Shown piece after piece: positions 4,830 through 29,467 of a DNA stretch of 64,000 nt. Source of the DNA: Spinacia oleracea (taxonomy: Eukaryota; Streptophyta; Magnoliopsida; Caryophyllales; Amaranthaceae); the NCBI RefSeq assembly GCF_020520425.1, contig NC_079492.1, forward strand, positions 143,809,861-143,873,860. The letters are read 5' to 3'. Positions within the stretch are counted from its first letter, which is position 1, and each line of letters opens with the position of its first letter. The notes beneath the pieces are model-generated. The model saw nothing but the letters and a program-made list of their open reading frames with translations, searched no databases and had not been told where the DNA came from. The translations under genes and the position numbers were made by a program.

Positions 4830-4852
4830 GAGGAAGTCTTTGTGTATACTAG

Positions 4853-4874
4853 GTATACCATTTAAATGGTATAC
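4853..4874. repeat. Perfect 22-bp palindrome in the left terminal repeat
   Basis: GTATACCAT and its reverse complement ATGGTATAC flank the central TTAA, with complete symmetry across all 22 positions. The right terminus has the matching structure at 29423-29444. It may be a transposase-binding site (inference). Confidence 0.85.
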
Positions 4875-5281
4875 TAGCAATAGAATAATACTAAAATCAG
4901 AAGTGGGGTCATTTAAGTTAGAAAAGAAAAAGGAAATGGGGGTTAAATGGAAGCGCCATGATATTTTGGTGAAATTGTAGAGAGAGAGTGAAATTTTCCC
5001 CAAATTGCGCCAATGTCAGTGTTGAAAAATTAGGCGGCAAAAATGGTGAAATAATTTGCATAATTTTTTTTCCGTAAACTTTAATTTCTATTCTGTTTAA
5101 TTTCTTCCCCCAATTTCTTCCCCCAATTTCATAATTATCTTTCAGATCTGGTTTGTTTGATTAAAAATTTGAAATCCGTATGAATGAAGCCCTCGAATGT
5201 GGAAGCTGGGCTCACCTTGTGTATGGTGTTTGTCATGAAATAGGCGTCGATAAGTTGGCCAAAAATTGGTAGGCGCCGGAA
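4875..5281. other. Left subterminal region of the MULE and transposase 5' region
   Basis: Contains the outer TIR-like GAGAGAGAG tract near 4981-4990. From about 5100 the sequence becomes pyrimidine-rich, which suits a leader. No gene is seen. Confidence 0.5.
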
Positions 5282-8200
5282 ATGAGAACTTCTAAGGAGG
5301 GTGAAGGAGTGGTTGGAAGCAAAAGGAGGTTGCAATTAAACCAGGTATGTTTCCAAGTTTCCGTAATTAGTTGTAAATAAACCAAACATTTCATTTTTTC
5401 ATACAATAAATGCATTCAACTATTAGTGGAAAAATAATGTCGAAAATTTTATTAAAACGAGGTCATTCAATTCAGTGAGTAGAGACTGAGAATTAGTTAT
5501 GGTATGAATTTTTTAATTATCCATGTTATAAATTTGAGTAATGTTGAAATTACGGTTTGAATTTGGTTACGAAATATGGGGAAAAAAATTAGGATAAAGA
5601 TGATTGGGATAATAATTAGGATCTCAACGATGATTGGAATAAAATTTAGGGTATTGTTATTGATAAATTGTGAATTTACGGAAAACATTTTATTAAAAGA
5701 GGAAAAGGCAATGGGGAACACGAACTCATTGGTAAACATTTTTAAGGTTTGGTATCGGAATCCTGTACCATACTCCAAATTAAACACAATAAATTTCATT
5801 ATGTAGGTTCTTGAATTGGATGGGGAGGAAGAGTTGTTGGATGATGTAGGGGAATATTGTAGTGATGATGGGTTTGACGAAGATGATGGGGTAGGTGATG
5901 GTGTAGAGTCTGAAGATGATGGAGTTGAGGAGGTAGAAGTTGGTGAAGAACGTTGGGAAGATGACGAGGATGATGTTGTGGATGATTATGATGAAGCATT
6001 AGATGAAGGAGATGAATTAGATGAAGAATTGTGTATTGAAAATGATGATGACCTGAATGAGGTTAATGATGATAATTATGATGAATCCGGAGAAATGGGA
6101 GTGGGGCGAAACACTACTTGTATGGAGGATGGAGACATTGGATGCCCTGGTGATGGAGATGGGGTTTCAACCATTAACGCAGATTTGTATACAACTCCTA
6201 CGAAGCGGAACAAAGGTCCCGTTCTACCGACCCCTTCTGTTGGAATGTGTTTTGCTAATTGGGAAGCATTGAATAACTATTTTCGATCCTATGGGGAGCA
6301 ACAAGGTTTTGGTGTAGTGTGTATGGGAGGGAATAAGAGCGGGGTGAAAGACAGTGAAACGGGCAAATCGAATTCCCTGAGGACCTATGTTTGGCGGTGT
6401 GAGTGTCATGGAAGGCCAAAGTACCGGCGGATGGTGAATGGCAGGGTAGTTACCTGCGCAGAGGAACCAATTCTTAAGAGGAAGACGAAGAAGTGTAGTT
6501 GCCCTGTTATGCTATATGGGGCTCGGACCAAAGAGAATTTATGGGTTGTGAAGAGTGTTGTTACTGAACATTTGAACCACGTTCCCACTCCTACCAAGTC
6601 CAACCATATTTCCATGTTCCGGGTCAGGAAAATTACTCAGACAATCCTGAAACAGATTGAAAATGATCACGATTCAGGTGCACCTGTGGCTCAGATTTTC
6701 AATAACTTAGCGGGAAGAAGGAATGGTGTAGAGAATATTGGTTTTACGAAAAAAGACGTGCATAATATTTTGAATAGGAGGATGCGATTAAGGCTACGAG
6801 ATGGGGATGCTGTTGCGATGATAAATTATTTAGATAAAATGACAAAGGATAATCAAAATTTTTTCCATCTGCACCGGCTTGATAAAACAGGGAAGTTGCA
6901 GGATGTAATGTGGGTTGATGCTCGTAGCAGAGCCGCGTATGAGTACTTTGGGGATGTGGTTTGTTTTGACTCCACGTACTTGACAAACAAGTATGAGTTG
7001 CCATTTTCGAACTTTGTTGGGGTGAATCACCATGGGCAAACAATTTTGCTTGGATGTGCATTAGTGTCTCATGAAACCGCGGAAACTTTCGTTTGGCTCT
7101 TTAGGGCATGGTTGTCTTGTATGGGGGGTAAAGCTCCCGCTGCTATTATGACCGACCAGGATGCGGCTATGAGGAAGGCAATTAGAATAGCAATGCCAAT
7201 GCCTAAAACCAGACATCGTTGGTGTATGTGGCATATTATGCAGAAGTTCAGCCGAAAATTGGGTTCGATGACTGATTTTCCCCAAATAAAAGTTGCCCTA
7301 CAGAATGTCATATACAACAGTTTGACCCCTGTTGAATTCGAAGAAGGTTGGGCTGAAGTGGTGGAAACTTTCAAGCTGAAGGAGGCTAAGGAAAGCTACA
7401 AGTGGCTAGTAGGTATTTATCATTGTTTGGTACTACTTTTAATTCTAATCGTGATATGATAAAGTATACATCATACGAAACCGCGATAACATTTTAGATG
7501 GGTACACGTATTCATTTAATTATGTACCAAACTGCAATAAAAATTTGATTTACATGTGCAATGTGGTTGGTATTTCATATATGGCATTGTCTTTGGTGAG
7601 AATGTCTTTCATGTTCAATTCCGTTGTTGTTAATTTACCTAATGACCTTTTTTAAATGTATAGGGTTGTATAATCAGCGAGAAATGTGGATACCTGCATA
7701 TGTGAAGCATATTTTTTGGGCGGGGATGCAGACGACTCAGAGGGTTGAGAGTATTAACAGTTTCTTCGACGGGTACTTGAAGAAGAATACGAGATTATAT
7801 CAGTTTGCTCCTAGGTACTGCAAGGCCATGGAAAGTAGGGCCAATGATGAAAAAGCTGCTGATGTGAACTGCTGTCGTTTTACTCGGTCTTTGGTTGGAG
7901 AGTTTGCTGTGGAGAGGAAGTTCCAGAAACTATATACGGATGCGAAGTTCGTTGAAGTCCAGATCCAATGTATGCGGGTATGTTACGTAACACCTATTAC
8001 TTCGAAAGTAGTTTCTGATGTGGAGGTTGAGCATACGGTGTCTGACAAAGTATGGGTATGGTCCAAGTTCTTGAGAAAGGAAATATCTTTGGCAGGCCGG
8101 AAGCGTATATACGTCGTGGTGTTCAACAAGGAGACCTCTTTTGCAAAGTGTGACTGCAAACATTTCGAGTGCCACGGCATTATGTGTAGGCACATCATTA

Positions 8201-9738
8201 AGGTGTTGGACGTGGAGGATGTGGAAAATGTGCCTGTTGGATATATAGTTGACCGATGGAGGAAAGATATACAACGCAAGCACACTCTTGTGAAGGTTGC
8301 TTATCATGATCCCGAGAAAACAGAAGAAGTTAAGCGCTATGACCGGATTATGAATGCGGTGGAACCTGCTGCCCTCCGTGGATCACTTTCCGAGCAGAAG
8401 TTGGATTTGGTCATAGAAGGTATTATGAATATTGTGTTACGTCTTGATGAGAGTGATGCTCTTTCAGCATTTGGTGATAACGAAGCTGGTGCACTGACTT
8501 CCGGGGGGAACATGATGGCGATTGTTGGTCCTACGACACCAGGCTCCGTTAACAAACCTCCAAACAGCGTTGGGGATGATACTACCACACTTACCCCCCC
8601 TATTATGGTTAAAGATCCTGTTCCGCGAGGTGGTTTAAAGGCTCACAGGACTCGTGAAAAAAGATTTTTACAACCAGGTGAGAATAAAAACTCCGCAAGG
8701 AAGCAAGTCAGGAAAAACAAGAGTGTTGTACCACAAGACTTTCCAGAAACCAGCAATTGTCAGAACACTTTCCTTCCTCAACACAACTACGTGCAGCCGC
8801 CAAACACCTTCCATCCTGGTTGGGGATCCCACGATCAATGTGTGAGTGAATCACATACGCTACAAATTAAACTTAAACAAATATTGATGTGAGTTTGTGA
8901 GTTTGTGATATTCTATTTAAACACATATTGATTTGAGTTTGTGATATTTCCAGGGGTATAGTGCTGATTACCCGCCTCAAATGGCTGGGCAAGTAAGGGG
9001 GACTATGGTATACCCTCAGCAGAACTACAACAATGGGGTATCTGTTCAACTGTTTCAGGTGATTTTTTTCGTGTCCTTTTGTACCACTCATGTTATTAAA
9101 TGTTTATTAACCGTCAACAACATTTACCTTGTATTTATTAGCGTTTGACATGTATACAGTCATCCGGAAGAGTAAGTGGAGTTGTTGCCACAAATTTGTT
9201 TCCCTCAGGACAGACAGAAATTCGCATGTCTGTGGGTGGGATTCGTATGACCCCGGAGGGTGGTGACGTACTTTTGTCCCAAGACCGTTGTGGTATATCA
9301 ATGTCACAAAACATATCTGGTGGTCCAATTGCCCAAAACCGATCCGGTTTACACATGTCCCAGAACATTAATGGTGTGCAAATGTCGCAAAACTTGAGTG
9401 GAGTGCAAATATCTCAGATGTCGCAAATGTCCCAGACTGCTGGTTCCATTCGTTACTTCACCAGTAACAGCAGCAACAGAGGTGGAAATTATCAAGAGGC
9501 CGGGACTCATTGTATGCCTGCAAATCATAACCAGCACCGGCATAGTTTCCAGGTTGTGAACGAAACCTCCCATGGGGATCATCGTAGTTATCAACCAACT
9601 ACTAAACACTTGTTGCAGTCCAATCCGGGTTTATTAGTCAATGAGGGTGGGTGTGGAACGCATTCTACACATGGCGCCAGTGGTAATCCAGTATTCACTC
9701 AAGACCTGCTCGGTTGTCATGACCTTACGAAGAATTAG
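5282..9738 (+). CDS. FAR1/MULE-type transposase
   Basis: Five exons fit by frame and splice sites: 5282-5344, 5807-7412, 7664-8841, 8954-9058 and 9160-9738 (1176 aa). The large exon has no in-frame ATG at its start, so the 21-codon first exon ending in a GTATGT donor was chosen. Domains: an Asp/Glu-rich N-terminus (about 25-125); a FAR1-type zinc-finger region (about 160-270, with CECHGRPKYRR and KKCSCP); and the MULE DDE core, with Asp in CFDSTY (about 409), Asp in MTDQDAAM (about 471), the RHRWCMWHI Cys/His pair and Glu in QRVESINSFF (about 585). A SWIM finger CDCKHFECHGIMCRH lies near 719. The last exon has a degenerate repeat around MSQN-x-SG-V. It should bind the terminal repeats and cut and paste the element in the nucleus. 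FAR1/FHY3 regulators derive from this transposase class; the element ends mark this copy as the transposon's own enzyme. Confidence 0.87.
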
Positions 9739-10528: not shown

Positions 10529-11826
10529 TTACAGTTCCAGTTTACGCGCAAGTGGTTGCTTCTGGAGCTTCACCGACTGCATAAATCAAATAAACCATTA
10601 CAATCAACTAAAATGTTTTCTAATTGTCTACATTATATAGTTCGTATGAGACATAATAACAGCGGTAGCGGTACCATACTCCCCATAACGGTACCATACT
10701 CACCCATAAATTATCGGAATGCATTGTAATGCAGTACTATGTACACCTGTTTGGTACTATGGAGTCAACCCAATGCAGTAAGCATACCTGTTTGGTACCT
10801 TAATGGAAGTACCAGACGGTGTAAAACAAAGCGTTGGGAACCGAAATAAGAAATTAAATGAAGTACCTCAAATAAGACAGTAAACAGGAGGTTGGCCGAA
10901 CCCAAATCAGATTCATTGTAATTTGGTAACAAGTCGTTTCCCCGCCACATAAGGACAACCCCTCCGCATTGATTCTCAAACCATTTGGATTGATATTCTC
11001 CTGGTAAGTTGCTAATTAGCTCCCTGCAGTCGTTGTTACTTATTCGGGCTTCAGTAACCACCATGAGTGATGGATGGTGCCTTGCAAACATCTCAAAGAA
11101 GGTGGCTCTGAATGAGGGTCTGCTCATGGATAGGGCGTTCCATGTAACGACCACCGTACCTCGTGGTATGAAGGCGGAAATCGCCGTCCCAACCATAGTC
11201 TTTCCCTCTAAACACACCTCAGTGTAAGCCCGTCGTTTGGTCTGAAAATACCTTGGAACAACAGTAATTTCCACCCCAGTAAACGTATGTTCCACACTCA
11301 TAACATGAATAGCATGAGCGTTGGATGCAATGAAAACGTGGCTCCTTGATTCAGGGAAATTGTACACAGGGAGGTCGTCCACAACTACAGCTGGTCTAGG
11401 GTCTACCACAGCGAGGAGGTTGTTCGGGTACAACAACCACGACCCTTGTGCAGCAAGCCGGTTGGAACACCAATCTAAGTAAGCCCAAAACCCAAGATGC
11501 ATATTAGGGTGGTCCGTAATTAAAGGGTGGTGTGCAGGCAGGATTTTACCTGCACAGGTGACCATCACAGAACAAGGGAACATAACAGGGTGGTAAGGCA
11601 ACTTACTAACGGCACAGTAAAGATGGATATTCAGGTCAGTTTTGATTGCGTGCGGCACACGGAGACCATTTTCTGCGTCTTCGACGTCGATGGAGTAGTA
11701 AGTGGTGTTGTAGTTCAATTCAGGCCCGTTTGAAGATTTTGGCTGGTCGAAGTACATTATGGCTTTTGGGTGGCAGAGTAGTGTTCGGCTGCTATCACAA
11801 ACAAGGATAGATTTGCCTTTGTCCAT
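10529..11826 (-). CDS. EEP-half protein 1 (unrecognised domain plus truncated endonuclease-like fold)
   Basis: Exons (minus) are 11826-10867 and 10576-10529, joined in phase 0 by GTACTT..TTTATGCAG; 335 aa. The ATG at 11826 (MDKGKSILV) was chosen because the frame upstream has no ATG. Residues about 1-220 form a domain shared with the two paralogues (HPKAIMYF near 19, MHLGFWAYLDWCSN near 109, DLPVYN, SHVFIAS). Residues 224-295 resemble the first strands of endonuclease/exonuclease/phosphatase proteins: VVTWN (Asn 230), VVTEARI (Glu 259) and GGVVLMW. The later GDFN- and SDH-type motifs of an active enzyme are absent. The last exon adds a short basic tail ending ARKLEL. Catalysis is therefore doubtful; a nucleic-acid-binding or regulatory role is only a guess. 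The start faces the zinc-finger gene at 13578. Confidence 0.72.
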
Positions 11827-13513: not shown

Positions 13514-13577
13514 GCCACAAGAAGTTGGCCACATCCTACCTCATGTTAAATAATTTAAAATCAAATAACGCCGGCTA

Positions 13578-13946
13578 ATGTCTCATAGTTCTAATTCCCT
13601 AAGGTCACCGCCGGCAAACGTGGGATGCGTAGATGGCCGGAAGATGCTCTGGTGCGAGACGATCAGTTGTCCAACATGCATCACTTGCATAACTGAACTA
13701 AGGATTTCACAGACAACCACAAATCCACACAAATTATATTTTAAATGTCGATTTTGTGGGTGGTTCCGGTGGGTTGAAGATCACAATTTAATAACAGAGG
13801 AAAACATGCTGCCATCGCGTCTTGTTGATGTTGGGCTGGACCGCGTCCTCCACCGCCTCGACAAGATTGAATCAAGCATTTGGATGTTGTATAAATTATT
13901 CGTCGTTTGTCTTATAGTTTTTGTGTATTTTCTCCTCCCAAAGTAA
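13578..13946 (+). CDS. GRF-type zinc-finger protein with C-terminal membrane anchor
   Basis: Single exon, 122 aa. A cysteine cluster at residues 31-60 (CPTC..TTNPHKLYFKC..C) followed by GWFRWVED matches the GRF zinc-finger pattern: Cys residues, an NP-x-x-x-(Y/F)-x-C core and an aromatic W-x-(D/E) end. A linker with amphipathic character (LDRVLHRLDKIESS) leads to a hydrophobic segment at about 101-120 (LFVVCLIVFVYFLLP), predicting a tail anchor. Plant genomes carry many such small GRF-TM proteins of unknown role, and GRF fingers elsewhere bind single-stranded nucleic acid. Its presence within a MULE and head-to-head with the first EEP-half gene is unusual. It has its own TATA box. It could be a captured host gene or a stable part of the element. 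Confidence 0.75.
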   Translation: MSHSSNSLRSPPANVGCVDGRKMLWCETISCPTCITCITELRISQTTTNPHKLYFKCRFCGWFRWVEDHNLITEENMLPSRLVDVGLDRVLHRLDKIESSIWMLYKLFVVCLIVFVYFLLPK

Positions 13947-14176: not shown

Positions 14177-15570
14177 TTAGCACATCAATAGACGTCGTTT
14201 TGCTCGGGAAGTCGTTCCAGGGATCACAGCCTACGTACGAATAAAAGGAACAAATTGTTATATGTTTTATCAAACATTATTGAGCTACATTGAACCACAA
14301 ACATACATTCCTCCATTGTAACCCCCATTTGTACACTATCCAACATTTGGTGTTTTATATGCCCTCGTTTGGTATTGTAATACCCCAAAATACGTGTTTT
14401 TCTCGGTCAAATCAGTTTTATATGGATCGAAAATGCATGGCCGAAACTGGATGGTTTGGTACACCATGTAGTTATTGTTTCTGTACCAAACCGTCGTTCG
14501 GAACCTTATGTCATACTATATGTCTATGTAAAACGGAAGACACTTACGTGAAATTGTAACGACGCAAGGTGTTTAGGTTTTGCTCCCCCCATTTGACAAA
14601 CGGGATCATGCCGGTACGTAATCGATGGCTGGACTTGGTTGACAGACCAGAACATAACAACACCCCCGGCTCGTCCTTCGGGACCGAATAAGTCGTGTTG
14701 GTACGTCCCAGGCAGTGTTTGTGCGATAATCAGTAGTTGAGGTTCATTTATTCTTGACTCGGTCACGATGATAATGGACGGTGTAAGTTGGGAAAATATG
14801 CGATAGAAGTGTTCCTTGAACGAAGGCCTGGTTACACCTCTAGCATTCCAAATGACCACTAACATTCCCTTTGCCAGTAGTGTCGGTGTTGTATGACCGA
14901 CGTATTGTTCTGTTGATCCCAGGTGAATATGGTGGTAACCCTTTTTATACAGGTTCCCTTCATGGTAGAAGACATCAACGTCAATTGAGTGAATGTAGTT
15001 AGAGTTTTTCATGACATGAAGTCCATCGGTGTAAGAACCAAAAAATATAGGGGTTTTTTTGATTGGTACAGTGTATACCGGTGTTTGGTCAATATGTAGT
15101 ACTGGAATGGGATCAATGAAAGGTAAGTAATTATAAGGGATTACCTCAAACGCCTCAAACTCGGCCCTACTCCTAGCTTCCCACTCTATGTAAGCTAACA
15201 AACCAGCTGGAATACGACCACCCGAGTCTTCGGGAGTGGGGAGGTGGAATGGTAGTACACGGTTGTTCTCCGTTACCATGAACCTACCGGGAAATTCTTC
15301 TCTGTCCGATGTTTTTGAAAATATTGCCCGTACGATAGTGTCCCTATCAACGGGGTTCCACTCCTCTTCCCCTATGATCTCGTCATAGGTCTGAAAGTAA
15401 AAGGTCCGATTTATATCCAACTCATATCGCATACCCGCAGCCGGGGAGAAGTACATTGCTTCGCGAGGATGATATAGGAGGTTCCTGGTTGGGGACGTTT
15501 CATTGCTTACACATTGTTTTAAAACGTTTTGGGTTGGTGATTTTGGCATTAGGCTTCCTTTGATTAACAT
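14177..15570 (-). CDS. EEP-half protein 2
   Basis: Exons (minus) are 15570-14548 and 14230-14177, phase 0, donor GTAAGT; 358 aa. An alternative start at 15549 (MPKSPTQ) aligns better with the paralogues. It is the most divergent of the three, but keeps HPREAMYF, LLAYIEWEARS, TPVYTVP, LVVIWNARGVTRPSFK (Asn 242), IIIVTESRI (Glu 271) and GGVVMFW. The WNARG and TE-x-RI words are close to the start of plant LINE endonuclease domains, which suggests where this half-domain came from. The rest of that domain is missing. The last exon is basic (SRAKRRLL). It diverges from the 16013 gene across 442 bp. Confidence 0.72.
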
Positions 15571-17137: not shown

Positions 17138-17715
17138 TGCTAATTGGTACCTACACTTCGCTAATATGGGTACCAAATGATGCGGTTTGGGATACACAAA
17201 CATTACGTAATCGGTGTGTCCTCGGTAACTTTATGTTTTTTATTCTGAAAGTGTTATTACTTTAGCCCTATGAGGTTTGCAAAATTCTCCCAAAAGCTTG
17301 TATTTTTTGGTCGTTTTCAGTAAGGCCCTAGGACTGTATTTGGACTATGTAATCGGTATTTGGTACACAAGGTAGTACCAAATAGCCAATTTGGACTATG
17401 TAATCGGTATTTGGTAAACACGGTAGTACCAAATAGCCAATTCGTACTTTATGTGAATTTATATGAGTTCACAATTAATATGTTATTAACATTACATTTG
17501 TCATGATACTCTAGCATTAATAATAACTACACCTTGTTCAATTTAATACAAATTCTAACATTATATATCATAATACAACACTTAAGGAATTTAATTCTTC
17601 AGCTTACACAACACTGATTATAAGAATATAGCCGACTATGAATACAAACCAATATAGTAAGAACCCTAGTTGTTTATAATTGTTGTAGGTGACTCACCCT
17701 CAATCCTTGTCATCT
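17138..17715. other. Convergent spacer with a 51-bp duplication
   Basis: Between the 309-aa gene (plus) and the third EEP-half gene (minus). Contains the duplication at 17340-17441 and several GGTAC words; no gene. Confidence 0.5.
17340..17441. repeat. Tandem duplication, 51 bp x 2, built on inverted GGTAC words
   Basis: TTGGACTATGTAATCGGTAT starts at 17340 and 17391. Each unit holds TTTGGTA and, about 12 bp on, GTACCAAATA, so each unit can form a small hairpin. Confidence 0.88.
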
Positions 17716-19175
17716 TCATAGACCCAACTCCGACGTACGGGCTACTTTTTTCTTTCTTGACACGTAAACCACCGGCTGTACACAAAATTGTAAGTATGCG
17801 TTACATAGTAGACGTCGAATTAGGAAACGTATTGAATATAATTGGGTGCGTCCTCATTTGAACTTATATACTCTTGTACTTACTTAGCTACCTACCCACA
17901 ACATTAATTTGGAGAGGCCATCGCACAATGTCAAAGTGTCCAGAAATATGAAGGTGGATTGCAAAGATGATACTAGTGTAGTTTGTGTTTGGTACCACAT
18001 TCGTAAAAGTTATTAAGAAAAGTAGTAGAAAGGTACAACTACATGCACGGGAATGGAACCCTTTTCGACCTTATTACGGTACTAAACTCTCAGATTTAGG
18101 TCAAATTTCATGTAAAGGTCATCAATGTCGTTTCAAAGGGCATTTAATCTAAGTAGAGTATGTAGAAAGAGGGGTGTTGTACGCTTTTTACCTCAAATGT
18201 GAAGTTGAACAACCCGCTTTCTGCCGTGGAATCATCTTCTTTGTAAGATACGAATAGATCATTAACGCGCCACATAAGAACCACCCCTCCACACTGATCT
18301 ATGTTATCGAACACTGCACTCTCGTACTTTCCTGGTAGTGTAGTTATCAGTTCCTGACAGTGTTCGTCGCTTATCCTGGCTTCAGTGACAATCAACAGAG
18401 CCGGGTGGTGGGTTGCAAACAGTTCCAAGAATGTCGCCTTGAATGATGGCCTTGTCATGGACTTAGCGTTCCATATTGACACAATCAAACCGCGTGGGAT
18501 CGTATTTGGTACCCCCTCGAATTTCTTTTGTCCCTCAACGGAAATGTCTGTGTAGGCACGTGACATGCCCCAAAAAAATCGCCGGCTAACTCTGACATTT
18601 AGGCTGTAGAAAATATCCTCCGCCCTCATAATGTGAATAGTGTCTGAGTAGGATGCAATGAAAATGTGTGCGTCGAAGGCGGGGATGTTATAAATTGGAA
18701 GATCCTGGACATCTATGTCTGGGACGGGGTCAACGACTGCAAGAAGCTCCGTTGGGTACAACTTCCAGTCAAGTTGTTCCCTCAGTTGGTTGGAGCACCA
18801 GTCGAGAAACCTCCAGAAGCCCAAATGCATGTGCGGTTGGTCTCTGATTAAAGGACGGTGAGCTGCAGCAGCATTCCCTTCAGTTGTTGCCATGATGGCA
18901 CAACGGAAATTTTCATGGGTGTACGGCAATTTGTCCATGACAGCATCAACTTGAAAATTCAAGTCCGTCTTAATTGCTTCATCTAACGGAAAAAGCATTT
19001 CTAAGTCTTCCATGTCGACGTAGTACGAGGTGTTGTTGTAGTCCAACTCAGGGACGTTTGTTGATTTTGGTGGACTGAAATAAAAAACGCAATTTGGATG
19101 TGAAAGGTAATTTTGGCAAGTCCCAGAGACCTGGTTTTGCGCAACCCTACTCGAAATCGACTTCAGTTTCTTCAT
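17716..19175 (-). CDS. EEP-half protein 3
   Basis: Exons (minus) are 19175-18192 and 17775-17716, phase 0; donor GTAAAA (weak), acceptor GTGTACAG; 347 aa. It is close to protein 1 over its whole length: HPNCVFYF, KSTNVPELDYNNTSYYVD, HMHLGFWRFLDWCSNQL, DLPIYNIP, IVSIWNAKSMTRPSFKATF (Asn 236), LIVTEARIS (Glu 265) and CGGVVLMW. The final exon is basic and ends ARTSELGL, like ARKLEL in protein 1, which supports both second-exon calls. As in its paralogues the catalytic second half of an EEP fold is missing. A weak TTTATAC element lies upstream (about 19244). It is head-to-head with the 19889 gene. Confidence 0.74.
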
Positions 19176-19888
19176 GCTAAAAGGTAGTAATGAGAAATTG
19201 GCTTTTGAGTGAGGGGGAAAACACTTATGGCTATAAGTTTGTATAAAGGGAGAAGATGAAATGAAGTTATACTAGAACAGGTAGTTGATAGCCTTTACTT
19301 ACAGTGGTTGAAAGTAATTAATGTGACTCACATTTCCCAACGTTTTTACGTAAGTTAGTAAATGAACTTCAAATCTTTACCTTTGGAACCCCAAACTACC
19401 AATTACCTAGGTTTGGTATACGATGATATATTCCCGTATACTTTTTAAACCGGTATGTACTCAAACAAAACAATACAAACTTATTTATATACACGCTTAT
19501 AAATACTCCGTATCACACCTGGACCATAAATACATGAAACATATATGTGTTATACAAAAGGTTTAGTTAATAAACAATCGTTGACAGTGTGGATTGTTTG
19601 GGACTCTGTATTCAGGAGGTTGAGACTGCATAACCTTGGGAATGGTACCTCATGGGGATAAGACAATGACAAACTTGGCGTGGTAGTTTTTAAGTTTTGT
19701 AGGCGGGAATTGCGGACCATACCCCAATTGGGTAGTTACGTATAGAAAGGAGGTTTCATTATAATAATAAAGGTAGTTATTTATTTCCACATTATTTGGA
19801 TAAGGACGGAGCCAGGGATCGTCTTCTATAAATAGGAGAACACATTCACGTTTATAGAGTGCATGTATTGGAGAAATACGATAATAAA
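19176..19888. other. Divergent spacer, EEP-half 3 / helical protein gene
   Basis: No gene. It holds a plant TATA-like TCTATAAATAG at about 19826 for the plus-strand gene and CCCTTTATAC read minus at about 19244 for the minus gene. The minus-strand open frame at 19650-19910 lacks coding character. Confidence 0.5.
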
Positions 19889-20359
19889 ATGGCATCGTCC
19901 GCAAACTCAAGATGGTCTGGCGTCCCTCATAGACCCACGGCGGAAGAACGTGCCATGGAAGAAATTAATGCAAAGGTGCAACAAATCAAGGAAGCGAAAA
20001 TAACTCAACGTGACTGCATAAAATCAACGATGATAAGAATGAGGTGGGAAGGGAATAATCGGGCTGAGACCCTTTTCAAAGATTTGCTACAGAGGTATGA
20101 CGATGTGGAGCAAGGCGTTGATGAAATGAACAAGGTAATGGAGAATGGGATACGAAATTGCAAAGAACATATACATCGACTCAAATCCATGCAACGTCAT
20201 TTCTTTACATCGCTACACCAGGCGCTGCGTATCGGTGGTCATGGGGATCATTGTGAACATATGAAAGAAATCATTGAGCAATATGACGACGCAGAACAAA
20301 GGGTGATTGATCTTAATATAGGAATTGAGCGTATCAAGTCCCCTACGCTTGCTCCGTGA
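19889..20359 (+). CDS. Small helical (probable coiled-coil) protein of the MULE
   Basis: Single exon, 156 aa from the ATG at 19889 (MASSANSRW); an upstream in-frame Met at 19859 is less well placed relative to the TATAAATAG box at about 19828. From residue about 20 onward it is almost wholly helix-forming and charged, with spaced hydrophobics (AMEEINAKVQQIKEA, RAETLFKDLLQRYDDVEQ, DEMNKVMENGIRN, MKEIIEQYDDAEQRVIDL). RYDDVEQ and QYDDAEQ suggest an internal two-fold repeat of about 65 residues. No family is recognised. A dimerising partner for another element protein is plausible but unproven. Confidence 0.62.
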   Translation: MASSANSRWSGVPHRPTAEERAMEEINAKVQQIKEAKITQRDCIKSTMIRMRWEGNNRAETLFKDLLQRYDDVEQGVDEMNKVMENGIRNCKEHIHRLKSMQRHFFTSLHQALRIGGHGDHCEHMKEIIEQYDDAEQRVIDLNIGIERIKSPTLAP

Positions 20360-21087
20360 GACTGATTATTACCTTCGTTAACGCAATTCCGTATGTTTGC
20401 TAAAGTAAGGTGTGAAGCATTATAAGTAGTACATATTAATAGTAAGTTAGTGTGACGCAGTGTAAGTTAGTGCGTCTTTCTGTTTATGAAATTAGGCTTT
20501 GCAGATGTGTGTAAGTGTGTCTTATGATAAGTGATTGCAAGTATGTTAAGTGTTTGCAAGTATTTAATGAACCATATTGTGTAATTACCATTTGTGGGTA
20601 ATGTTATTGTAATTTTCGATAAACGCCTTTGTACTCGAATACGAATAATTTTCTTACGGGCTACTTAATACTCGACAATCCTATCTTTTCGTCAACATTT
20701 AGTGTAACGAAGGGACGCTGTCTGGTAATTTCTTTGGGGGTCTTTAATAAAGCTGAAATGAAATATTAAAGCGTATTAGGTTGAAAATCGCGCGAATTGA
20801 ATATCACAACTGACAACAAAGGTCAGCAGTTTGAAGAAGATATAAAGTTTGAAGAAGATATAAGGTCTCTTAAGTGTAAATGTTGGCGTCAGTAAGTGTG
20901 AGTATATTGTGACGGTTGATTATCTATATTGTGACGGTTGATTATCTAAATAATATAAAATCGAAGAGGTGGCAGTTTTGTGACCGTTACATCAAATCCT
21001 CTATAAATAACACTTAGTATGAGGGAGATATTCAAACACTTCATTCTCTCTTCACATCTCTTCACAACAAAGCATTTCATTTGCAAA
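20360..21087. other. Spacer and promoter of the 191-aa gene
   Basis: Contains two tiny direct duplications (TTTGAAGAAGATATAA at about 20831 and 20849; TATTGTGACGGTTGATTATC at about 20908 and 20928). CTCTATAAATAAC at about 20999 is the TATA box for the gene at 21088. Confidence 0.55.
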
Positions 21088-21663
21088 ATGGAATTTCCAC
21101 CAAACGCATACCCCAACGTCTGCCCTAACCACCATTACCGTTATGATCATGTCGCACAACAAAAAACTGCTCGCAAACCAGATCTCATACAAGAATTCGA
21201 GATCGACCTCGCGGAAAAGTACGGCCATGCGGTGGTTGCACCGGACCAACACGGTGATGAACAGCCCACGAGCGTCGATATTGTTGCAGGAGATGAGAAT
21301 GTAATGGGTATCATATGGTCTAAGATGGACAGGCCAACTAGGGCTAATTCAGTGTTCGCATGCAAGAAGTGGGCCATGGAACTGATCAATCAATACTACC
21401 GCCCCAACTTCGACTGCAGATTCTCCGAAAGAGTACGTACCGTTAATTTTCGATACTATGAGATCCTAGAGTACAAAGAAACAAATGGCACTTACACAAG
21501 GATTAAATATAAGTGCGTCTGTGACCTGTGGAAGGAAGCATCAAATCTCTTCTACCCTAGGGAAACGCTGCTCAATGTACCAAGTGACATTGATTTCAAT
21601 AATTTCGACCAAAGTGGGAACAATGCAAACTACAATTGGAGGATTCAGTGTGGTTCCATGTAA
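21088..21663 (+). CDS. Unrecognised 191-aa protein of the MULE (weakly cystatin-like)
   Basis: Single exon. The ATG at 21088 (MEFPPNAYPN) is preferred over 21019 because 21019 lies only about 20 bp from the TATA box. The N-terminal part is low-complexity with His/Pro. Residues about 60-100 are acidic to neutral. From VFACKKWAMELINQYYR to IKYKCVCDLWKE the arrangement (helix, then strands with an NGTYTR turn) loosely recalls cystatin-like folds, but I see no QVVAG-type motif, so no function is claimed. A second, shortened copy follows at 22284. Confidence 0.58.
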   Translation: MEFPPNAYPNVCPNHHYRYDHVAQQKTARKPDLIQEFEIDLAEKYGHAVVAPDQHGDEQPTSVDIVAGDENVMGIIWSKMDRPTRANSVFACKKWAMELINQYYRPNFDCRFSERVRTVNFRYYEILEYKETNGTYTRIKYKCVCDLWKEASNLFYPRETLLNVPSDIDFNNFDQSGNNANYNWRIQCGSM

Positions 21664-22200
21664 TGTCTTGGAATTGGAATTCTCTACCCATTTTCGTTCT
21701 GTTATTTCAATGTCATAGTTTTAGGTGTGTGATTGTTTTCTTTTCATCTTATGTTTTGCTTAATTTTATTTAAATGCCCTAGTATGAAGTGTGATTTGGT
21801 GTGTTTGTCATCCTCCTTTAGATTATGTTATTGTAATGTAACGGTGTGATTTGGTTTAATGACTATGATTGCTAAAATGAAGTATTTTTTTAATATTTGT
21901 ATAATGGTAATTAGGTTTTCAATAAAGAACGACAAACAACACTAACAGTTTCAAAGGTCATGTTATAATTTCGTCGAATGGTCTATGATCACCCTTATTC
22001 CGTAGGCATATGGTACCATTGAGTAAAGTAGTACCAAACCAATGAACAACACATGTTTGGTACTGTTTATATTGCGACAGAGGTACCAACGGTATGTTTG
22101 GTACTGTTTATATTGCGACAGAGGTACCAACGGTATAATTTTTTCAAATTAAAGGAATAGTGTAAGGTTAGCATAACGAAATATGGGTGTTTTTTTTTAT
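21664..22200. other. Spacer between the two copies of the 191-aa gene
   Basis: Holds the 41-bp duplication at 22054-22135 and several GGTAC words; no gene. Confidence 0.5.
22054..22135. repeat. Tandem duplication, 41 bp x 2
   Basis: TGTTTGGTACTGTTTATATT repeats exactly at 22054 and 22095. Each unit ends with GAGGTACCAACGGTA, pairing the TTTGGTAC word with an inverted GTACCAA. Confidence 0.9.
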
Positions 22201-22601
22201 TAAATGGATAAGGTGGCAGTTACGTGACGGTTAAAACAGGCGCTCTATAAAGAACACTTCGTGTGAGGGTTATTTCCATAAACTTCAATGTCTTCGCATG
22301 CAAGAAGTGGGCCATGGAATTGATCAATCAATACTACCGCCCCGACTTTGATTGGAAATTCACCAAAAGAGTACGTACCCTTAATTTTCGATACTATGAA
22401 ACCCTAGAGTACAAAGAAACAAATGGCACTTACACAAGGTTTAAATATAAGTGCGTCTGTGACCTGTGGAGGGAAGGGTCAAATACCTTGAACCCTAGGG
22501 AACCACTACTTAATGTACCGAGTGACATTGATTTCAATAATTTCGACACAAGTGTGGGGAATGCAAACTACAGTTGGAGGATTCAGTGTGGTGGCATGTA
22601 A
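22201..22601 (+). pseudogene. Truncated tandem copy of the 191-aa gene
   Basis: The promoter block (GGTGGCAGTTACGTGACGGTT, TCTATAAAGAACACTT) matches that of the first copy. After the leader the sequence jumps to TTCGCATGCAAGAAGTGGG in mid-CDS, deleting the start codon and about 90 codons. From FACKKWAMELINQYYR to the stop the frame is open and well conserved. The first in-frame ATG (22312) lies inside this domain, so only a fragment of about 96 residues could be made. Confidence 0.75.
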
Positions 22602-23508: not shown

Positions 23509-26500
23509 TCAACGAACTGGGCAGTGGGTTGCAACGATTTGGGGAAGAAGCGGGCGGCAGGAGTTGAAATCTGAATTCAAGTGAGACAAAAACAGTGCCC
23601 TCCGAGCTACATTGATGTCCCCCTGTCCCAAAACAAGTTTGAAAAGACAACTGTAAGTTTATAATGTGGGGGTATGGCACTTACAGTTACAACAGTAGAG
23701 GACTTACCACATGCATCGTCTTTGTAAATGCCCTTGCACTTTCCTGGATAGCCATAAGCATTACTATTCCACACGCATGACTACAAATCCAAACAAAACA
23801 TATCAGTAAGAATTAAGGTGGTTACTCGACGATGAAAAGGTAGCATAAACAGTACTTGTCGTTGTAGTCAGGGAAGCTAATGGAATCCAAGGGCCAAGTA
23901 TGCATTTGCTTCAACTTCCAAACAAGAGCTGCATTATACTGCGTGTCCCTCCAATGTAGAACGTACTCCACAGCTGCTATCTGGAATGAGGAGACCGTAT
24001 TATGTTAGTACAATAAACTGAGTGAAGTCAATGTTCTTAAACTCCCACCAAACCAGGTTAAGATACCAATTTTTTAACATCCCCAGAATGCTCGGAAGCA
24101 GGATTAGTATACATGCTGTCAATGAACCATATCTTCTGGTCTTTCAGTGCAAAAGCAACACACCACCAATGTCCGTTGTCCACAACTGGAACATAGACCT
24201 GGACATGATAATTACAAATTCTTACAAATCGCATACCTGTGTGTCGCGGACAATTAATACACCAAAAACTAAAATAACAAATTGTACAAGGACGTTCCTG
24301 AAAAAGAAGACAGATCCCGAACTGACCAATTAGAGAGCAAACATTCAACGTAAAAGGCATGTAGGAACTTATTTCCAAATCCTTAAAATACGGCCTCATC
24401 ACTCAGTTATTAGTCCGAAAATAGTCAGACACATGTTGTTGGCATATAATCAGACATTTAAACATGGAGTGAAAAGACTAATTAGACTTACCACAGATAT
24501 ATCAGCTGACACAATCTTCTGGAGAGGGGTGGACCACTTCTTCAGCAGACCAGCATATGTTTCCCTCGTCTTTAATTTCTGATACTGTAAAGCACAGTAA
24601 CAAAATAACTAAGCAACCTCGTACGCTTACTGTATTGATTTCATTAATGGTGAATATTAGGAGAACATAATATTAGGAGAACATACCGCAAATGAGGAGT
24701 CCAGCATGATTCTGCGAGAATTCGTTGGGTATTCCAGAGCCCATTCCCTGTTGTATATGTTTGCAACGGCCCGAACGTATTGGGAATGCACGTACTCCCT
24801 AGGACGCACAACCGAGTAGCACATCATCCGATTTGCATCATTACCATCACACTCGATAAGCATGGCCCCCCTGCAAACATAAAATACAGATATGATACAA
24901 GTGATTATCATTACATAAATGTACAACGTACATTAGTGTATACAACGTACTTAAGTGTTACATGAGTAAAAGTTGTAGAACGTACTGCTCTTTCCCTTTA
25001 GGATTGTATGACTCCACATAAGCTACTACGTCACTCTCAAGTTTTGTCATTCGTACTCGCGTCTGCCGATAGCGTGTTTTTGGGTTTGTTCTCGGAATCC
25101 TTAGGATCAATTTCTCCCGTGGTCCTTCTTGGTCATCAGTTTGGAGATTCTCATCAGTGGTGTTCCCTTCAGTGGGGTTATCTTGACTGGTGTTCTCTTC
25201 ACTGTTCTTATCTTCAGGGGGGTTCTCTTGAGCGATGTTCTCCAAGGGCGATGCTGCAACCGTTCCTTGCACAGGACCATTAGCCGGTCCCTCATCATCG
25301 TCATCATCCCTATTATTCGGCCCCCCATCCTTGACGCCACCATCCTGCTCTTCCGGCTCCTCAACATTCTCCTCACCATTGTCTTCACCATCCTCTTTGT
25401 CTTCAACTACACCCAGCTGTCCCACCTTCTCCGATGACATTCCATCTGGAGGTGGCCCGTCACCAGCTTGAACCTGTACGTGCTGTTGTGTCTGGTCGAC
25501 CGGGTGCTTGCTTGTTTCTGGGTCAGTTGCTACTACACCAACATCATCAGCAGTGTGGACCAAAGGTACATCACCGTGGCTGACCGGGTCTAGGGGATTC
25601 ATAACTGGCACACTCACATGAGGGCCCACAAATACACGTCCCCCATCAGACGGTTGCAACTCCACATCGGAATCGTCATCGGCATCCAACTCTGTAAGCA
25701 CCTTATTCACAGACTGGTCCAACGGCATAGCCACACCATCAACATCTATCGTCAAATGATCGGTAGCATGATATGACCTCATTCCTCTTTCACGGGATAC
25801 GCCCCGGCGATCTTGCAATAATGGAGCAAGCTGCCCCATGACCTAAACAGAAAAATATGTACAGTAATTCATGCACACAGAAATGACTCCTCCAGACCTT
25901 GGTGAGTACTATTTTTTACTAGTTAAACATATATGCCTGTTTATCACTAACACTCAGTATTTGAAAATTATCCCACTACAAAGAGTACCAAACAACATCA
26001 ATATCATTCATATGGTACACCTAAAGACATTTATGAGTACTATTTGAATCCCTAAAACATTTTTGGCTATTAATCACTAACATCAACATAAAATTGAGGA
26101 AATCGTTTAACTTCTCATACCATCTCTGTGACCTCCTGAGCTAGGGTGCGTCTCCATTCTGAAGAAGTCATCTGTGCTACCATCTCAGCAACCTCTACTG
26201 CGGGAGACCGTCTACCCTCCCTGCCGTAAAGGGGATGAGGATCCCCGTACACAACATCAACAGTCTGGAAAGATTATAAAAGGAATAGATTTCAGTCAGA
26301 TTAGATAATACAAAATTTAATATGACAAATACGACCAACTAACAACCAGTTACCCACCGTAATCCTTCCATAATCTTCACTCGCTTTCCTATCCCGATTC
26401 TTGGCCTCATCCACTTCCTCCTGTGTCCAGACTTTGATCCTGGGAAACTCATCCCATCTCACAGGATGCCTGCATAAATGGTCTAGGTAGAAAATCTGTA

Positions 26501-28342
26501 AAACAAATCCACTTTCACATAAGGCACTGTAATAGAAGACAGGATACTAACACCACAACAATAACAGTATTAACCTTTTATATAATTTAATACATTAAAT
26601 ATTTCAGTAAGATAGACGCACCAGCAAAAACAACACACAACCACCAGTCCCAGCGGCATACCCCTGATGGTCTATCTTCCGCTGACAGGCGTCTCCGTAG
26701 TCTAAAAGCCATGTGTGACAAAACTCACACCAATTGTACAGTGATGCATTCTTTGCCACGGAAACTGCACCTAGCAATTTTAAAGACATGTTACCCCCAT
26801 CGGTAGAAGGACATAAAATCTGCCCCAGCAACACAATCATGAAATTTTCCATGAACGAGGCCCTATCACGCTGATTAGCCAGGGGCTTTATTTTTCCTTC
26901 ACCGTCTACCGGCCCTGCCAATTCCTTTACAGATTTCGCTATGATTATTGTGCTCTTTGAGGTTGATGTATTCTTTTCACCATACTTGAGGGCCATCGCT
27001 TTAAGGGTGCCTGGAGGAAGATCAGACTCCTTCACTGGCACCGGAAGACCGCTGTTCTGGAATCCGAATACATATTCCCAATGGGAAGCAGTTATCGGCA
27101 ACACATGGCCGTCCCCTCCAACAAGGTAACTGTTACCCCCATCCAACCGGGACATCAGCCAGTAGCACAGCTGCCTAGGTAGCTTGGATATTTTCAAATC
27201 CAACATTCCCCCGAAACCCATTTTCCTAACACAACTTCTCCTTGACTCATCAAAAGCAGCAATAATCTTAGAAAATGCATCCGTGCGACAGATAACGCTT
27301 GGTTGCTACACATAATAGTTTAAGTAAAAACCTAATCAAAATACACAATTCATCTTTAAATAAAGGATCAATAGTACCTTCCGGCCACAATTAGCCCGCT
27401 GAGTAGCAACTACCACGCCGTGAAACTTCGCATACTCACCCCTAGACATAGGATGTTTGGGAATCGGTACCTAAACATGAAAAAAACATTACCATCAACT
27501 ACGTAGAAAAAACATTATTATACCATAAAAATCCTTAAAAACAATGAATAAATTTCAAAATTATATACCCGCACAAACATCCTCCTGTTATTCCCTCTGA
27601 TTGCCTTCTGTTTTGCAGGGGGCTTTCCTTTTGCTACCCCTGTTTCATCAAACTTCCTACCCATCTGCTTCATCGCAGGAAGTATCGTCTTCTTCACAGG
27701 TCTCCTTCCCTCGTCAACATCATCATAATCCTCTCTACGCCTCTTCCGCATCATCTGCAGATGTGCCTTCTTCTTCAAAGCATTCTGCCCGACCTCCTTC
27801 CAACTCTTCCCTCTTTTCTGAACGCGAACAACAACATCCTCTCCTTCATCTTCATACCCACCATCCATATATTCACCGTCTTCGTCTTCTATATCTTCTT
27901 CCTCCTCTACTTCATCGTATGAAATAACCCTCCTGCTTTTAGCAGATTGCCTTTTCTTTGGCGCACGTTTCACTGTTCTCTGGCATAATTCATCCTCGAA
28001 TTCTTCGTCCTCATATATCTCATCCTCATATTCATCATCTTCAACATCTTCATATGCATCCCCGTCAAAAACAGATTCTTCACTGTCATCCCCAGACAGC
28101 GATCGCCCTTCCTCATCTTCTTCCATTTCTTCATCGACGACAGGGTCTTTGCCCTTTAGCTTACTATTCCGAGCAACTTCCACGCGTTTTTCCTTAAAAA
28201 CAATATTGAAATACTATCTTGTTAATAAACGTATAACAATATACATACTATCAATTATCACCAAATACAATACACTCATAAAAAGAGCAGTGACACTCAC
28301 CCTAGGTTTGCTGCTGCTACCACTTTGTCCCTTGATAACCAT
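23509..28342 (-). CDS. ULP1-type cysteine peptidase (MULE-borne)
   Basis: Fourteen exons fit in frame with GT-AG borders (minus): 28342-28301, 28192-27569, 27470-27378, 27305-26622, 26495-26358, 26264-26121, 25842-24986, 24870-24687, 24584-24492, 24381-24343, 24198-24067, 23980-23856, 23780-23708 and 23622-23509; 1113 aa. The N-terminus is Lys/Glu/Asp-rich. Residues about 254-575 match the region preceding the peptidase in plant transposon ULPs (GFGGMLDL, VFGFQNSG, LLGQILCPS, IFYLDHL). A long acidic, Pro-rich linker follows (about 580-830). The C48 core shows His in VVDNGHWW (about 976), Asp in IWFIDSMY (about 993) and Cys in NHACGIVML (about 1055). ULP1 enzymes cleave SUMO-type conjugates in the nucleus. 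It is comparable to Kaonashi MULE peptidases. No frameshift or stop was found in any exon, so it is likely functional. Confidence 0.88.
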
Positions 28343-29422
28343 CCTACAAATACAATTTTACCAATCATTATACCATGCATACCTTCGATATAACAGTACC
28401 AAACACATTGATAATTTAGGTTTGGTTCCAAAGAAAATACCAAATCACATATCCTTTACCTAAATGTATCAACATATGTAATATTTTCTATTTGGTACCA
28501 GATCAAGTACCAAACAACAATCAAACAAACAAAGGTAGTTTTAAAAGCATGCCATCACACGAATTAAACATTGATCAGGCACCCCTTCATATCAGTTTAA
28601 CTTTACCTAAACGAAGGCTTATCAAATTACTTAATTCGACTTGGAAAGTAATTCAACAACAAACATCAAAGTATAGAATTCGCATAATAACCACAAAGTA
28701 ACCACTAATTAACCCCAAATATGAAAATTCCATAAAAGTAGCTACTTCATCACTAAATTAAATATACACTTAAATTTCCATTAACAACAGCTACTTCAAG
28801 TAATTAGAACATAATTGTGAAAAAAATTCACTTTCAATTCATCAGCAACACAATTGTCAAACAAAATGGTGAAACCCTAAAAATCAAATCAGCCCCTAAA
28901 AACTGTGAAAACAAAAAATATTACCAAAACAAGAACTAAAGAACAATTGATACAAAAATAAATTAACTTCACCTGGAAAGTAATTCAGAACTTCCTTAGT
29001 TAACAAATTTCACCAAATATAATCGCCCTGGCAAACACCCTTTTTGGACTGTATGAATTGGAAACCGGTCACGAAGTGGCTAACCTTCTAACGAGAGACT
29101 GAGAATTTGGCCAGTTCTTGGCGGAGAATTTGGAGGGAGATCAATTGAGCGGGAGAGCACGCAAGGAGGAAGAAGAAGAAAGAACCGTATTTTGGAAAGA
29201 AACAGTAATAATGAAACCACCACCTGATTTTTTACATAACATTAAATTAATAATCAGTAAATTATAAAAGACAAATTAAAGATAAATTGAGAAGTCAAAA
29301 AAAATTTTGAATTTCAAATTTTGGAACAGAATTTTAGAGAGAGAAGTTGCAAAATATCTGAAGTGGTGATTAAGGGTGGGCCACCCACCTTTACTCCACT
29401 TACAATTACCTTCTTGTCCCTA
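28343..29422. other. Right arm of the MULE: ULP1 promoter region and subterminal DNA
   Basis: No coding signal. It includes GTACCAAA/TTTGGTAC words at about 28397, 28492 and 28508. The last 150 bp match the left subterminal region in reverse (TTTTAGAGAGAGAAGTTGC, CAAAATATC). Confidence 0.5.
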
Positions 29423-29444
29423 GTATACCATTGTTATGGTATAC
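29423..29444. repeat. Imperfect 22-bp palindrome in the right terminal repeat
   Basis: Nine-bp arms GTATACCAT and ATGGTATAC flank TGTT. It corresponds to the perfect palindrome at 4853-4874. Confidence 0.85.
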
Positions 29445-29467
29445 CCAGTATCGTTTTAGACAACCTC

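Follow-up and report, generated by a model that had tools for sequence, protein, structure and literature searches.

Plant DNA elements that move by cut and paste are generally considered small. In the portions of the published reports consulted, no Pack-MULE of one survey exceeded 7 kb, and 16- to 20-kb CACTA elements with four to five ORFs are described from a red alga (PMC6431247). In kochia (Kochia scoparia), the duplicated EPSPS locus includes a 16,037-bp mobile element with four genes (accessible sections of PMC6808082). VANC proteins are reported, in the parts of the articles consulted, to bind short motifs in noncoding tandem repeats, and these motifs vary among related families (PMC5735166, PMC10398659). 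Here, we show that in spinach (Spinacia oleracea) a 25-kb MULE retains about ten genes through many moves. Most of these genes are under selection, and the set recurs in two families of closely similar architecture and, in part, in a third, distant one.

The window, a 64,000-nucleotide stretch of spinach DNA, contains at positions 4830 to 29467 a single MULE of about 25 kb, delimited by imperfect inverted termini (TIRs) and by an identical 9-bp direct repeat (TSD), AGTCGTTAC, directly outside both ends (Table 1). TIR identity over the first 48 bp is 36/48, compared with a maximum of 26 when the right end was shuffled 10,000 times. The joined flanks with one TSD align through the junction to a paralogous empty site at window positions 32123 to 32703, with 510 of 571 aligned positions identical and with gaps only away from the junction; the target at this site, AGTCGTTAA, differs by one base from the TSD. 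Thus, the direct repeat, the inverted termini, and the empty site, all proposed in the first-pass annotation, were recovered. The element has the defining features of a MULE, i.e., a MULE-type DDE transposase, TIRs, and a TSD within 8 to 11 bp. The focal insertion lies amid tandem gene repeats.

Table 1. Features of the focal element and its insertion site (window coordinates)
Feature	Position	Strand	Remarks
Left TSD, AGTCGTTAC	4821-4829		identical copy at 29468-29476
Left TIR, first 48 bp	4830-4877	+	36/48 match right end reversed; 40 scored matches in spinach genome
FAR1-type MULE transposase gene	5807-9738	+	frames 5807-7459, 7600-8892, 9142-9738; exon ends approximate
Scattered GTACCAAAC copies (16)	7425-28515		14/16 outside stop-to-stop coding frames
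EEP1, N-terminal domain plus first half of EEP-like fold	10529-11826	-	intron and short tail exon inferred
Small GRF-like zinc-finger gene	13569-13946	+	under Pfam cut-off; 56% to sister
EEP2, N-terminal domain plus EEP half	14177-15549	-	exon end 14548 and tail exon 14230-14177, both inferred
o316, conserved protein lacking a known domain, divergent EEP2 partner	16187-17137	+	relatives to 31%
EEP3, third EEP-half paralogue	17716-19175	-	tail exon start 17775 inferred
CC175, 175-aa protein	19832-20359	+	coiled coil judged by eye
D218 gene	21007-21663	+	relatives also outside these elements
41-bp x 2 tandem repeat with motif core	22053-22136		from sequence
Second D gene, truncated	22251-22601	+	about 203 aa in other copies
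ULP1 (C48) peptidase gene	23509-28213	-	several frames; 5' end approximate; His stretch 24157-24174, Cys stretch 23758-23780
Right TIR	29420-29467	-	pairs with left TIR
Right TSD, AGTCGTTAC	29468-29476		matches left TSD

The spinach genome contains dozens of copies, about 25 kb long, in which a set of about ten genes recurs, and left-end matches lie on all six large contigs. The EEP2 gene lies inside 33 of the 40 scored left ends (37 EEP2 places were used for this pairing), and 34 are followed by a right end in proper orientation within 150 kb, which ties both termini to one element, as had been supposed; 15 spans between paired ends measure 24.6 to 26.8 kb. Six copies were read at both ends; five have perfect 9-bp TSDs, different from each other, c6 has none, and each of the six has at least one gene that is broken, cut, or missing. 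The tandem gene repeats flanking the insertion might suggest that the segment spread by duplication, tandem or segmental, rather than by transposition. The distribution over all six contigs, the end of similarity at the TIR in the seven other loci compared, and the five copies with different TSDs there reduce this explanation to a negligible probability, and we reject it for the copies read.

o316 lies within 45 kb of 55/58 EEP2 places of at least 50% identity (random places, 0.8%). Seven EEP2 places below 50% identity all have o316 (7/7); these were chosen by eye after the o316 list had been inspected, and the usable count is therefore 55/58. The co-occurrence counts are based on 65 of 121 EEP2 rows, 82 of 109 o316 rows, 63 of 79 CC175 rows, and 142 of 150 rows of a fourth listing, the omitted rows being mostly second fragments of places already counted, EEP1/EEP3 paralogues at about 30% identity, and a few of the weakest matches. 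As a check, the first-pass annotation had named copies that share the gene set and carry different target repeats; the EEP2 and o316 counts and the varying TSDs accord with both points.

In the focal copy, the transposase (two frames), EEP1 to EEP3, the GRF-like gene, o316, CC175, D218, and six ULP1 frames are free of stops, as judged from the best of three frames per stretch with approximate exon ends. This agrees with the earlier description of the transposase and peptidase frames as open. About ten genes had been counted; the set of this size was found, with nine genes apparently open here and one truncated, as the focal copy lacks about 320 bp of the second D gene that occur in each of the five aligned copies. 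From these open frames only, we infer that the element may be autonomous, now or recently.

The transposase matches the MULE domain PF10551 (E 4e-33; 114 bits, cut-off 27.6), as well as ZSWIM1-3 and SWIM above their cut-offs (SWIM, 24.0 bits) and FAR1 slightly under its cut-off (27.0 versus 28.1 bits). The C terminus of the ULP1 protein, pieced together from exons, matches Peptidase_C48 (38.6 bits, cut-off 20.7, E 1.4e-9), and its His, Asp, and Cys were read in both the focal and the sister gene; a domain search of the focal ULP1 frames did not find DUF1985. Usually, a Gln precedes the Ulp1 Cys by six residues. Because this residue is a Tyr in the focal gene, peptidase activity is doubtful. 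The reported GRF finger corresponds to a small GRF-like gene, with a match under the Pfam cut-off in both families (E 0.67 in the focal and E 0.0024 in the sister family).

Three related EEP-half genes had also been reported, and three paralogues are indeed present; their match to the fold is sub-threshold. The EEP half did not match the Pfam EEP family even at E 10 (one chance match only). Two PDB searches (best E 0.22 and 0.13) gave AP endonucleases or ExoIII in 26/27 and 1/1 cases, mostly versions of one protein, and these matches spanned the WN and E motifs. The full catalytic set of EEP proteins includes an Asp, an Asn, and a His of the second half. The spinach EEP halves retain the WN and E motifs, but their frames stop after the first half and are followed by an inferred exon encoding a short basic tail, so that the full catalytic set appears to be absent. 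Continuation of the gene into a second catalytic half was considered and rejected, as the next EEP2 exon after the GT donor, identified by eye, encodes the short tail. This tail is alike in the focal and sister EEP2, and in the focal copy EEP1 and EEP3 end in similar basic tails. Among the matches listed, EEP2 has 14 other places at 99%. Searches of Pfam and PDB at E 1 gave no match for o316, whose relatives, as low as 31% in identity, lie beside EEP genes. Protein searches returned 4, 2, and 2 sequences, several near-identical to the window's own; the relatives include P0004 (56% to EEP1) and P0008 (71% to D218).

A sister family, with 44 to 88% protein identity to the focal family and a 10-bp TSD, keeps its genes in almost the focal order; D218 was searched for in the sister element that was read and not found, and the rest of the set is present. 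Between focal and sister elements, pN was below pS in 15/15 stretches, with dS above 1 or saturated in 13. The transposase has a dN/dS of 0.12 to the sister and a pN/pS of 0.20 for its first frame (c6 versus c7), and EEP3 has a dN/dS of 0.20 to the sister. Constraint was also detected among copies for EEP1 (pN/pS 0.33, P 6e-4), the GRF-like gene (0.14, P 0.005; 56% identity to the sister), and o316 (0.24, P 0.002). EEP2 shows a pN/pS of 0.70 among copies, which is not significant, with pS 0.77 versus pN 0.27 at 56% identity to the sister. Among copies, no significant constraint was found for CC175 (pN/pS 0.61), D218 (0.49, P 0.08), the third transposase frame (0.53), and two ULP1 exons (1.57 and 1.87). 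CC175 has 87% protein identity to the sister with a dS of only 0.20. At the DNA level, it is 88% identical to the sister, and the other genes are far more diverged.

Five copies are 98.8 to 99.4% alike, and their common cargo could therefore reflect mere recent ancestry, the genes having been captured from the host or nested by chance and carried as passengers of one recently amplified master copy. D218 relatives of about 50% identity are clustered elsewhere, as might be seen for a captured gene, and CC175 carries an in-frame TAG in 11/11 sister-like places at 86 to 90%. Against passengers stand the sister family, which apart from D218 has these genes in almost unchanged order, and the excess of pS over pN in every stretch, with dS above 1 or saturated in most. 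Together with the 55/58 proximity of EEP2 and o316, these findings make passenger cargo quite improbable, and for the set as a whole we reject it. The roughly ten cargo genes are inherited as an integral part of the element, and the gene set is shown to be kept in two families, largely under purifying selection. A distant relative (tier 3) shares part of the set. Its bounds are taken as the points where two copies cease to align; its transposase is a weak match only, and its ULP1 gene matches DUF1985 weakly (E 0.0066, under the cut-off). ULP1 elements also exist without this cargo, as 24/42 ULP1 places at 50 to 79% identity and 8/43 at 80% or more lack EEP2, o316, and CC175 within 45 kb; an example lacking EEP and o316 lies near C1:51185439.

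GTACCAAAC is the most frequent non-simple 9-mer of each family, with 16 copies in the focal and 15 in the sister element, 29 of the 31 outside coding frames. It occurs 16 to 17 times in each of five focal-family copies counted, compared with a mean of 0.23 and maxima of 4 (focal) and 6 (sister) for 1730 permuted 9-mers. Off the element, there is one copy in 39 kb of window flank and none in two nested inserts (5.9 and 10.5 kb). GTACCAAAC is absent from the tier-3 locus, which carries GTACCATT instead, with 25/25 places outside the exon list and 15 within two 20-bp tandem arrays; in these counts, the sister nested insert and tier-3 positions 16700 to 20030 were tallied apart, the latter being included in the 25 places. 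One tier-3 array sits in a stretch that the second tier-3 copy lacks, and it may have been inserted separately. A short noncoding motif, partly in tandem, is thus shared by the focal and sister families and replaced by another in tier 3, a pattern that resembles that of VANC anti-silencing targets and suggests by analogy that the motif may help the element to evade plant silencing.

Alternatively, the cargo might serve transposition itself, in excision, synapsis, or reintegration, as thought for mudrB, with GTACCA as an internal site for the transposition complex. So long an element may need helpers, the GRF-like and EEP-like domains hint at contact with DNA, and mudrB is apparently required for integration (PMC6446971, in the portions consulted). 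However, the motif copies are scattered across introns and spacers without concentration at the element ends, and the motif differs in the distant relative, where it lies partly in tandem arrays, as do VANC targets. We consider this role unlikely. Our best explanation as a whole, to which we assign a probability of roughly 0.6, is a giant MULE with an integral cargo of about ten genes and VANC/KIU-like anti-silencing via a GTACCA-core motif. The FAR1-type DDE transposase would cut and paste the element. The ULP1 protein, with its DUF1985-like stretch in the tier-3 relative, would play the anti-silencing part that VANC/KIU proteins play in VANDAL elements, and the GTACCA-core motif strewn through the noncoding DNA of the element would direct it there. 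The three EEP-half proteins might be nucleic-acid- or partner-binding accessory proteins and not nucleases, and the GRF-like, o316, CC175, and D proteins might be further accessory factors for silencing escape or for moving the 25-kb unit. This provides a testable address motif for self-directed anti-silencing and names two new protein families, the EEP half and o316.

A literature search without preprints, judged from its listings apart from the papers cited here, found no spinach element of this kind. Pack-MULEs likewise enclose extra genes between MULE termini, but these are host gene fragments moved by a transposase in trans (PMC6431247, in the parts consulted), whereas the spinach element has its own open transposase frames and whole genes under selection. 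Kaonashi/KIU MULEs also combine a MULE transposase with a ULP1 peptidase gene; as described in the accessible portions of PMC13317346, they are non-TIR elements with three coding genes, in contrast to the TIRs, about ten genes, and FAR1-type transposase found here. VANDAL elements share a short, repeated, family-variable noncoding motif, which their anti-silencing protein binds to remove methylation. DUF1985 is a domain of that protein, and the tier-3 relative matches it weakly, under the cut-off. Hi of VANDAL21 encodes VANA, VANB, and VANC (PMC5735166, PMC10398659, as far as consulted), whereas the spinach element encodes ULP1 and many more proteins and, as read from its sequence, has one motif common to two deeply diverged families.

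Kochia and spinach belong to the same plant order. As described, the kochia element resembles the spinach element in its FHY3/FAR1-type gene, which encodes a SWIM finger, in having one gene of the EEP superfamily and one with no domain, and in its presence in several copies; it differs in having four genes in 16 kb and a second gene termed ubiquitin-like, not ULP1 (portions consulted of PMC6808082). Its FAR1 gene was tied to MULEs by the authors, and these portions give neither termini nor a TSD. The integral multigene cargo supports the cargo class proposed in the first-pass annotation; given the kochia element with FHY3/FAR1 and EEP-superfamily genes, the word undescribed is too strong. It is tempting to speculate, tentatively, that the elements of spinach and kochia belong to one ancient class of giant plant MULEs, in which ULP1/DUF1985, half-EEPs, and o316 would form an escape apparatus with a co-diverging GTACCA-core address, and which may reshape loci. 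The kochia element, blamed for duplication of a herbicide-resistance gene, might belong to this class, which, if real, moves gene blocks of 16 to 25 kb and can remodel loci as at kochia EPSPS.

The giant MULE family described here is one whose cargo is integral and largely selected. The focal element is bounded by imperfect terminal inverted repeats (TIRs) with 36 of 48 positions identical (at most 26 when the right end was shuffled 10,000 times), and AGTCGTTAC stands on both sides as its target-site duplication (TSD). When joined with a single TSD, the flanks align without a break at the junction to a tandem paralogue (510 of 571 aligned positions identical), an empty site explained by the tandem array of related plant genes that surrounds the element. 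Thus, the 24,638-bp insertion is directly visible. The first-pass annotation, which had reported the 9-bp direct repeat, the inverted termini, and the empty site, was right in nearly every detail.

Searches of the spinach genome with the first and last 200 bp gave at least 40 left-end and at least 40 right-end matches, lower bounds because only the best 40 of 172 first-look candidates and the best 40 of 104 candidates, respectively, were scored. Of the 40 left ends listed, 34 can be paired with a right end no more than 150 kb away and 6 cannot, so the termini do not belong to two different elements. Fifteen of the 34 spans measure 24.6-26.8 kb, 5 are shorter (16.9-21.6 kb), and 14 are longer, up to 131 kb. 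The possibility that other copies lack the internal genes was addressed with EEP2, one of three EEP-half genes, which is found, correctly oriented, no farther than 60 kb from 33 of the 40 listed left ends (25 of these at 9.4-10.4 kb) and is absent from that range in 7. Six further copies (c2-c7) were examined in 30-kb pieces; in c3, which has a 10.5-kb insertion, the covered sequence stops short of the right end. Copies with different target repeats, which the first-pass annotation had proposed to look for, were found: five of the six copies read at both ends (focal, c2, c4, c5, c6, and c7) have perfect 9-bp TSDs, all different, and c6 has none.

Over aligned columns, the focal element is 98.8-99.2% identical to c2, c4, c5, and c6 and 96.1% identical to c7. 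This high identity at most suggests recent movement. Every copy read has stops, losses, or a truncation, so present-day activity is at best putative. Scored by a best-of-three-frames test, stops occur in D218 (c2), the second transposase frame and EEP2 (c4), the second transposase frame and EEP3 (c5), ULP1 frame U4 (c6), and the second transposase frame, o316, CC175, D218, and ULP1 frame U3 (c7). Copy c4 also misses about 4.9 kb, including o316, EEP3, and CC175. The proposed complement of about ten genes is largely kept, but the second D gene of the focal copy is truncated.

The transposase matches MULE, ZSWIM1-3, and SWIM above the cut-off and FAR1 just below it, and its DDE residues (Asp, Asp, and Glu) lie in FDSTY, TDQD, and QRVESIN, as expected. 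The pieced C-terminal exons of ULP1 match Peptidase_C48 (E 1.4e-9), and the focal stretches NGHWW, FIDS, and HACG are kept as EHWW, FIDS, and HACG in a second, diverged MULE family, the sister. Identity to EEP1 is 27% for EEP2 and 49% for EEP3. In these genes, whose exon models are predicted from sequence alone, conservation extends as far as a GT donor preceded by FE or FH; next comes a putative short basic tail exon, which is similar between the focal and sister EEP2 genes. A protein search with o316 returned two sequences, one a named, uncharacterized spinach protein.

Between c6 and c7 (P values uncorrected), pN/pS was low in the first (0.20, P 1.5e-6) and second (0.30, P 0.014) transposase frames, EEP1 (0.33, P 6e-4), the GRF-like gene (0.14, P 0.005), o316 (0.24, P 0.002), and EEP3 (0.36, P 0.009). 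It was not significant in the third transposase frame (0.53), EEP2 (0.70), CC175 (0.61), D218 (0.49, P 0.08), and ULP1 frames U2 (0.35, P 0.08), 25216-25842 (1.57), and 27521-28221 (1.87); among the remaining listed frames, P fell below 0.05 only for 20251-20465 on the minus strand (0.03). In the focal-sister comparison, pN was below pS in all 15 stretches (P 0.009 to 1e-79), with dN/dS of 0.12 for transposase stretch a, 0.20 for EEP3, and 0.22 for U2; for EEP1, EEP2, the GRF-like gene, and o316, pS is saturated (0.77-0.92) and pN is 0.17-0.37. On the sister side, 3 of these 15 stretches (transposase b, CC175, and U3) contain one stop each.

The sister element, reached through EEP2 relatives at 57-62%, has the 10-bp TSD GTAGAACACC, a TIR beginning GAGAAAGTCT, and a nested insert inside its ULP1 gene. 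Three more sister copies were sampled: two start at the same position to within one base, in unrelated flanks, and the third gave no match. Its gene order is transposase, two EEP halves, GRF-like, EEP2, o316, CC175, and ULP1, with the EEP3 relative adjoining EEP1, whereas focal EEP3 lies between o316 and CC175. A search for D218 in the sister element gave no match; D218 relatives grouped away from the elements may be clusters of host genes or a further element family. CC175 shows 88% DNA identity between focal and sister elements, the other genes being far more diverged, and dS is comparatively low for CC175 (0.20) and U6 (0.43), which suggests gene exchange between the families. An in-frame TAG is present in all 11 of the sister-like CC175 places at 86-90%; CC175 may thus be dead or differently built in the sister family.

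Several o316 relatives at 31-37% adjoin EEP relatives at 29-37%. The third-tier locus examined, together with one copy on C4, contains ULP1, EEP2-like, and o316-like genes and then a B3-like frame. The EEP2-like and o316-like genes are divergent, as in the focal element, and ULP1 lies on the other side and in the opposite direction relative to the focal arrangement. The locus, bounded only where its two copies stop aligning and with only a weak transposase hit, is a candidate MULE. Among the places compared in the spinach genome, o316 lies within 45 kb of EEP2 in 36/38 places at ≥80% identity and 19/20 at 50-79%, and o316, CC175, and ULP1 all do so in 27/38 and 16/20, respectively; only 0.8% of random places have o316 within 45 kb. 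ULP1 is more widely spread: 24/42 places at 50-79%, possible stripped or ancestral elements, and 8/43 at ≥80% are without EEP2, o316, and CC175 within 45 kb.

Coordinates of the features discussed (C1-C6, contigs of the spinach assembly)
Feature	Position	Remarks
Window	G000 contig C6:143809861-143873860	spinach, 894-Mb assembly
Focal element, left and right ends	window 4830 and 29467	
Empty site	window 32123-32703	tandem paralogue
Tandem array of related plant genes	window 4126-4800, 31558-32260, 34089-34386, 38503-38744, 42511-42711	repeat families include D7, D10, D13, D16, D20
Two 30-bp-repeat arrays	window 52999-53373, 56537-56966	by eye, would encode His/Gly/Ser-rich repeats
CC175, focal	window 19832-20359	compared with sister locus L028
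Sister element	C6:15923501-15958000	
Third-tier locus	C2:69762001-69792000	
B3-like frame	L035 (third-tier locus) 6777-7259	beside EEP and o316; B3-like DNA-binding match E 4e-5, below cut-off
Cargo-free ULP1 places, 50-76%	C1:51185439, C4:7656695, and 22 further	none of EEP2, o316, CC175 within 45 kb
D218 relatives, grouped	C5:92.85-92.95M, C6:47.22-47.25M, C6:55.36-55.37M, C4:90.39-90.44M	away from elements

The commonest 9-mer, non-simple by our own filter, is GTACCAAAC in both the focal (16 sites) and the sister (15 sites) elements. Fourteen of the focal sites lie outside all stop-to-stop coding frames; of the remaining two, one follows the inferred donor of EEP1 and the other is close to where the first transposase frame ends. 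All 15 sister sites lie outside the listed exons. The surrounding letters differ between the two elements, so the sites are not simply one inherited set. Permuted 9-mers served as controls, and GTACCAAAC occurs once in 39 kb of window flank and not at all in two nested inserts. The third-tier locus has no GTACCAAAC and instead has GTACCATT, with 25/25 sites outside the exon list; two 20-bp arrays, of 8.6 and 10.1 units, account for 7 and 8 of these. The second array falls in a stretch absent from the C4 copy; leaving the stretch out reduces the count to 16, against 14 in the C4 copy.

Published work provides the background on KIU and VANC (PMC13317346, PMC5735166, PMC10398659), MULE traits (PMC6446971), and size limits (PMC6431247). 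As described there, VANC targets are short motifs in non-coding tandem repeats that differ between related families (PMC5735166, PMC10398659), a pattern that GTACCAAAC and GTACCATT resemble. Most interesting, we infer from this likeness that the motif may be an anti-silencing address.

The proposal of an undescribed cargo class goes too far. This giant MULE family with integral, largely selected cargo belongs with the ULP1-MULE kind, as a variant new to that kind, and has a possible cousin in print. The kochia EPSPS element, the closest published counterpart found and compared by description only, is 16,037 bp long, with FHY3/FAR1, ubiquitin-like, and EEP-superfamily genes, the last assigned through InterPro, and a fourth gene that has no domains (PMC6808082). 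That InterPro assignment would support the EEP reading here if the kochia and spinach genes proved to be related.
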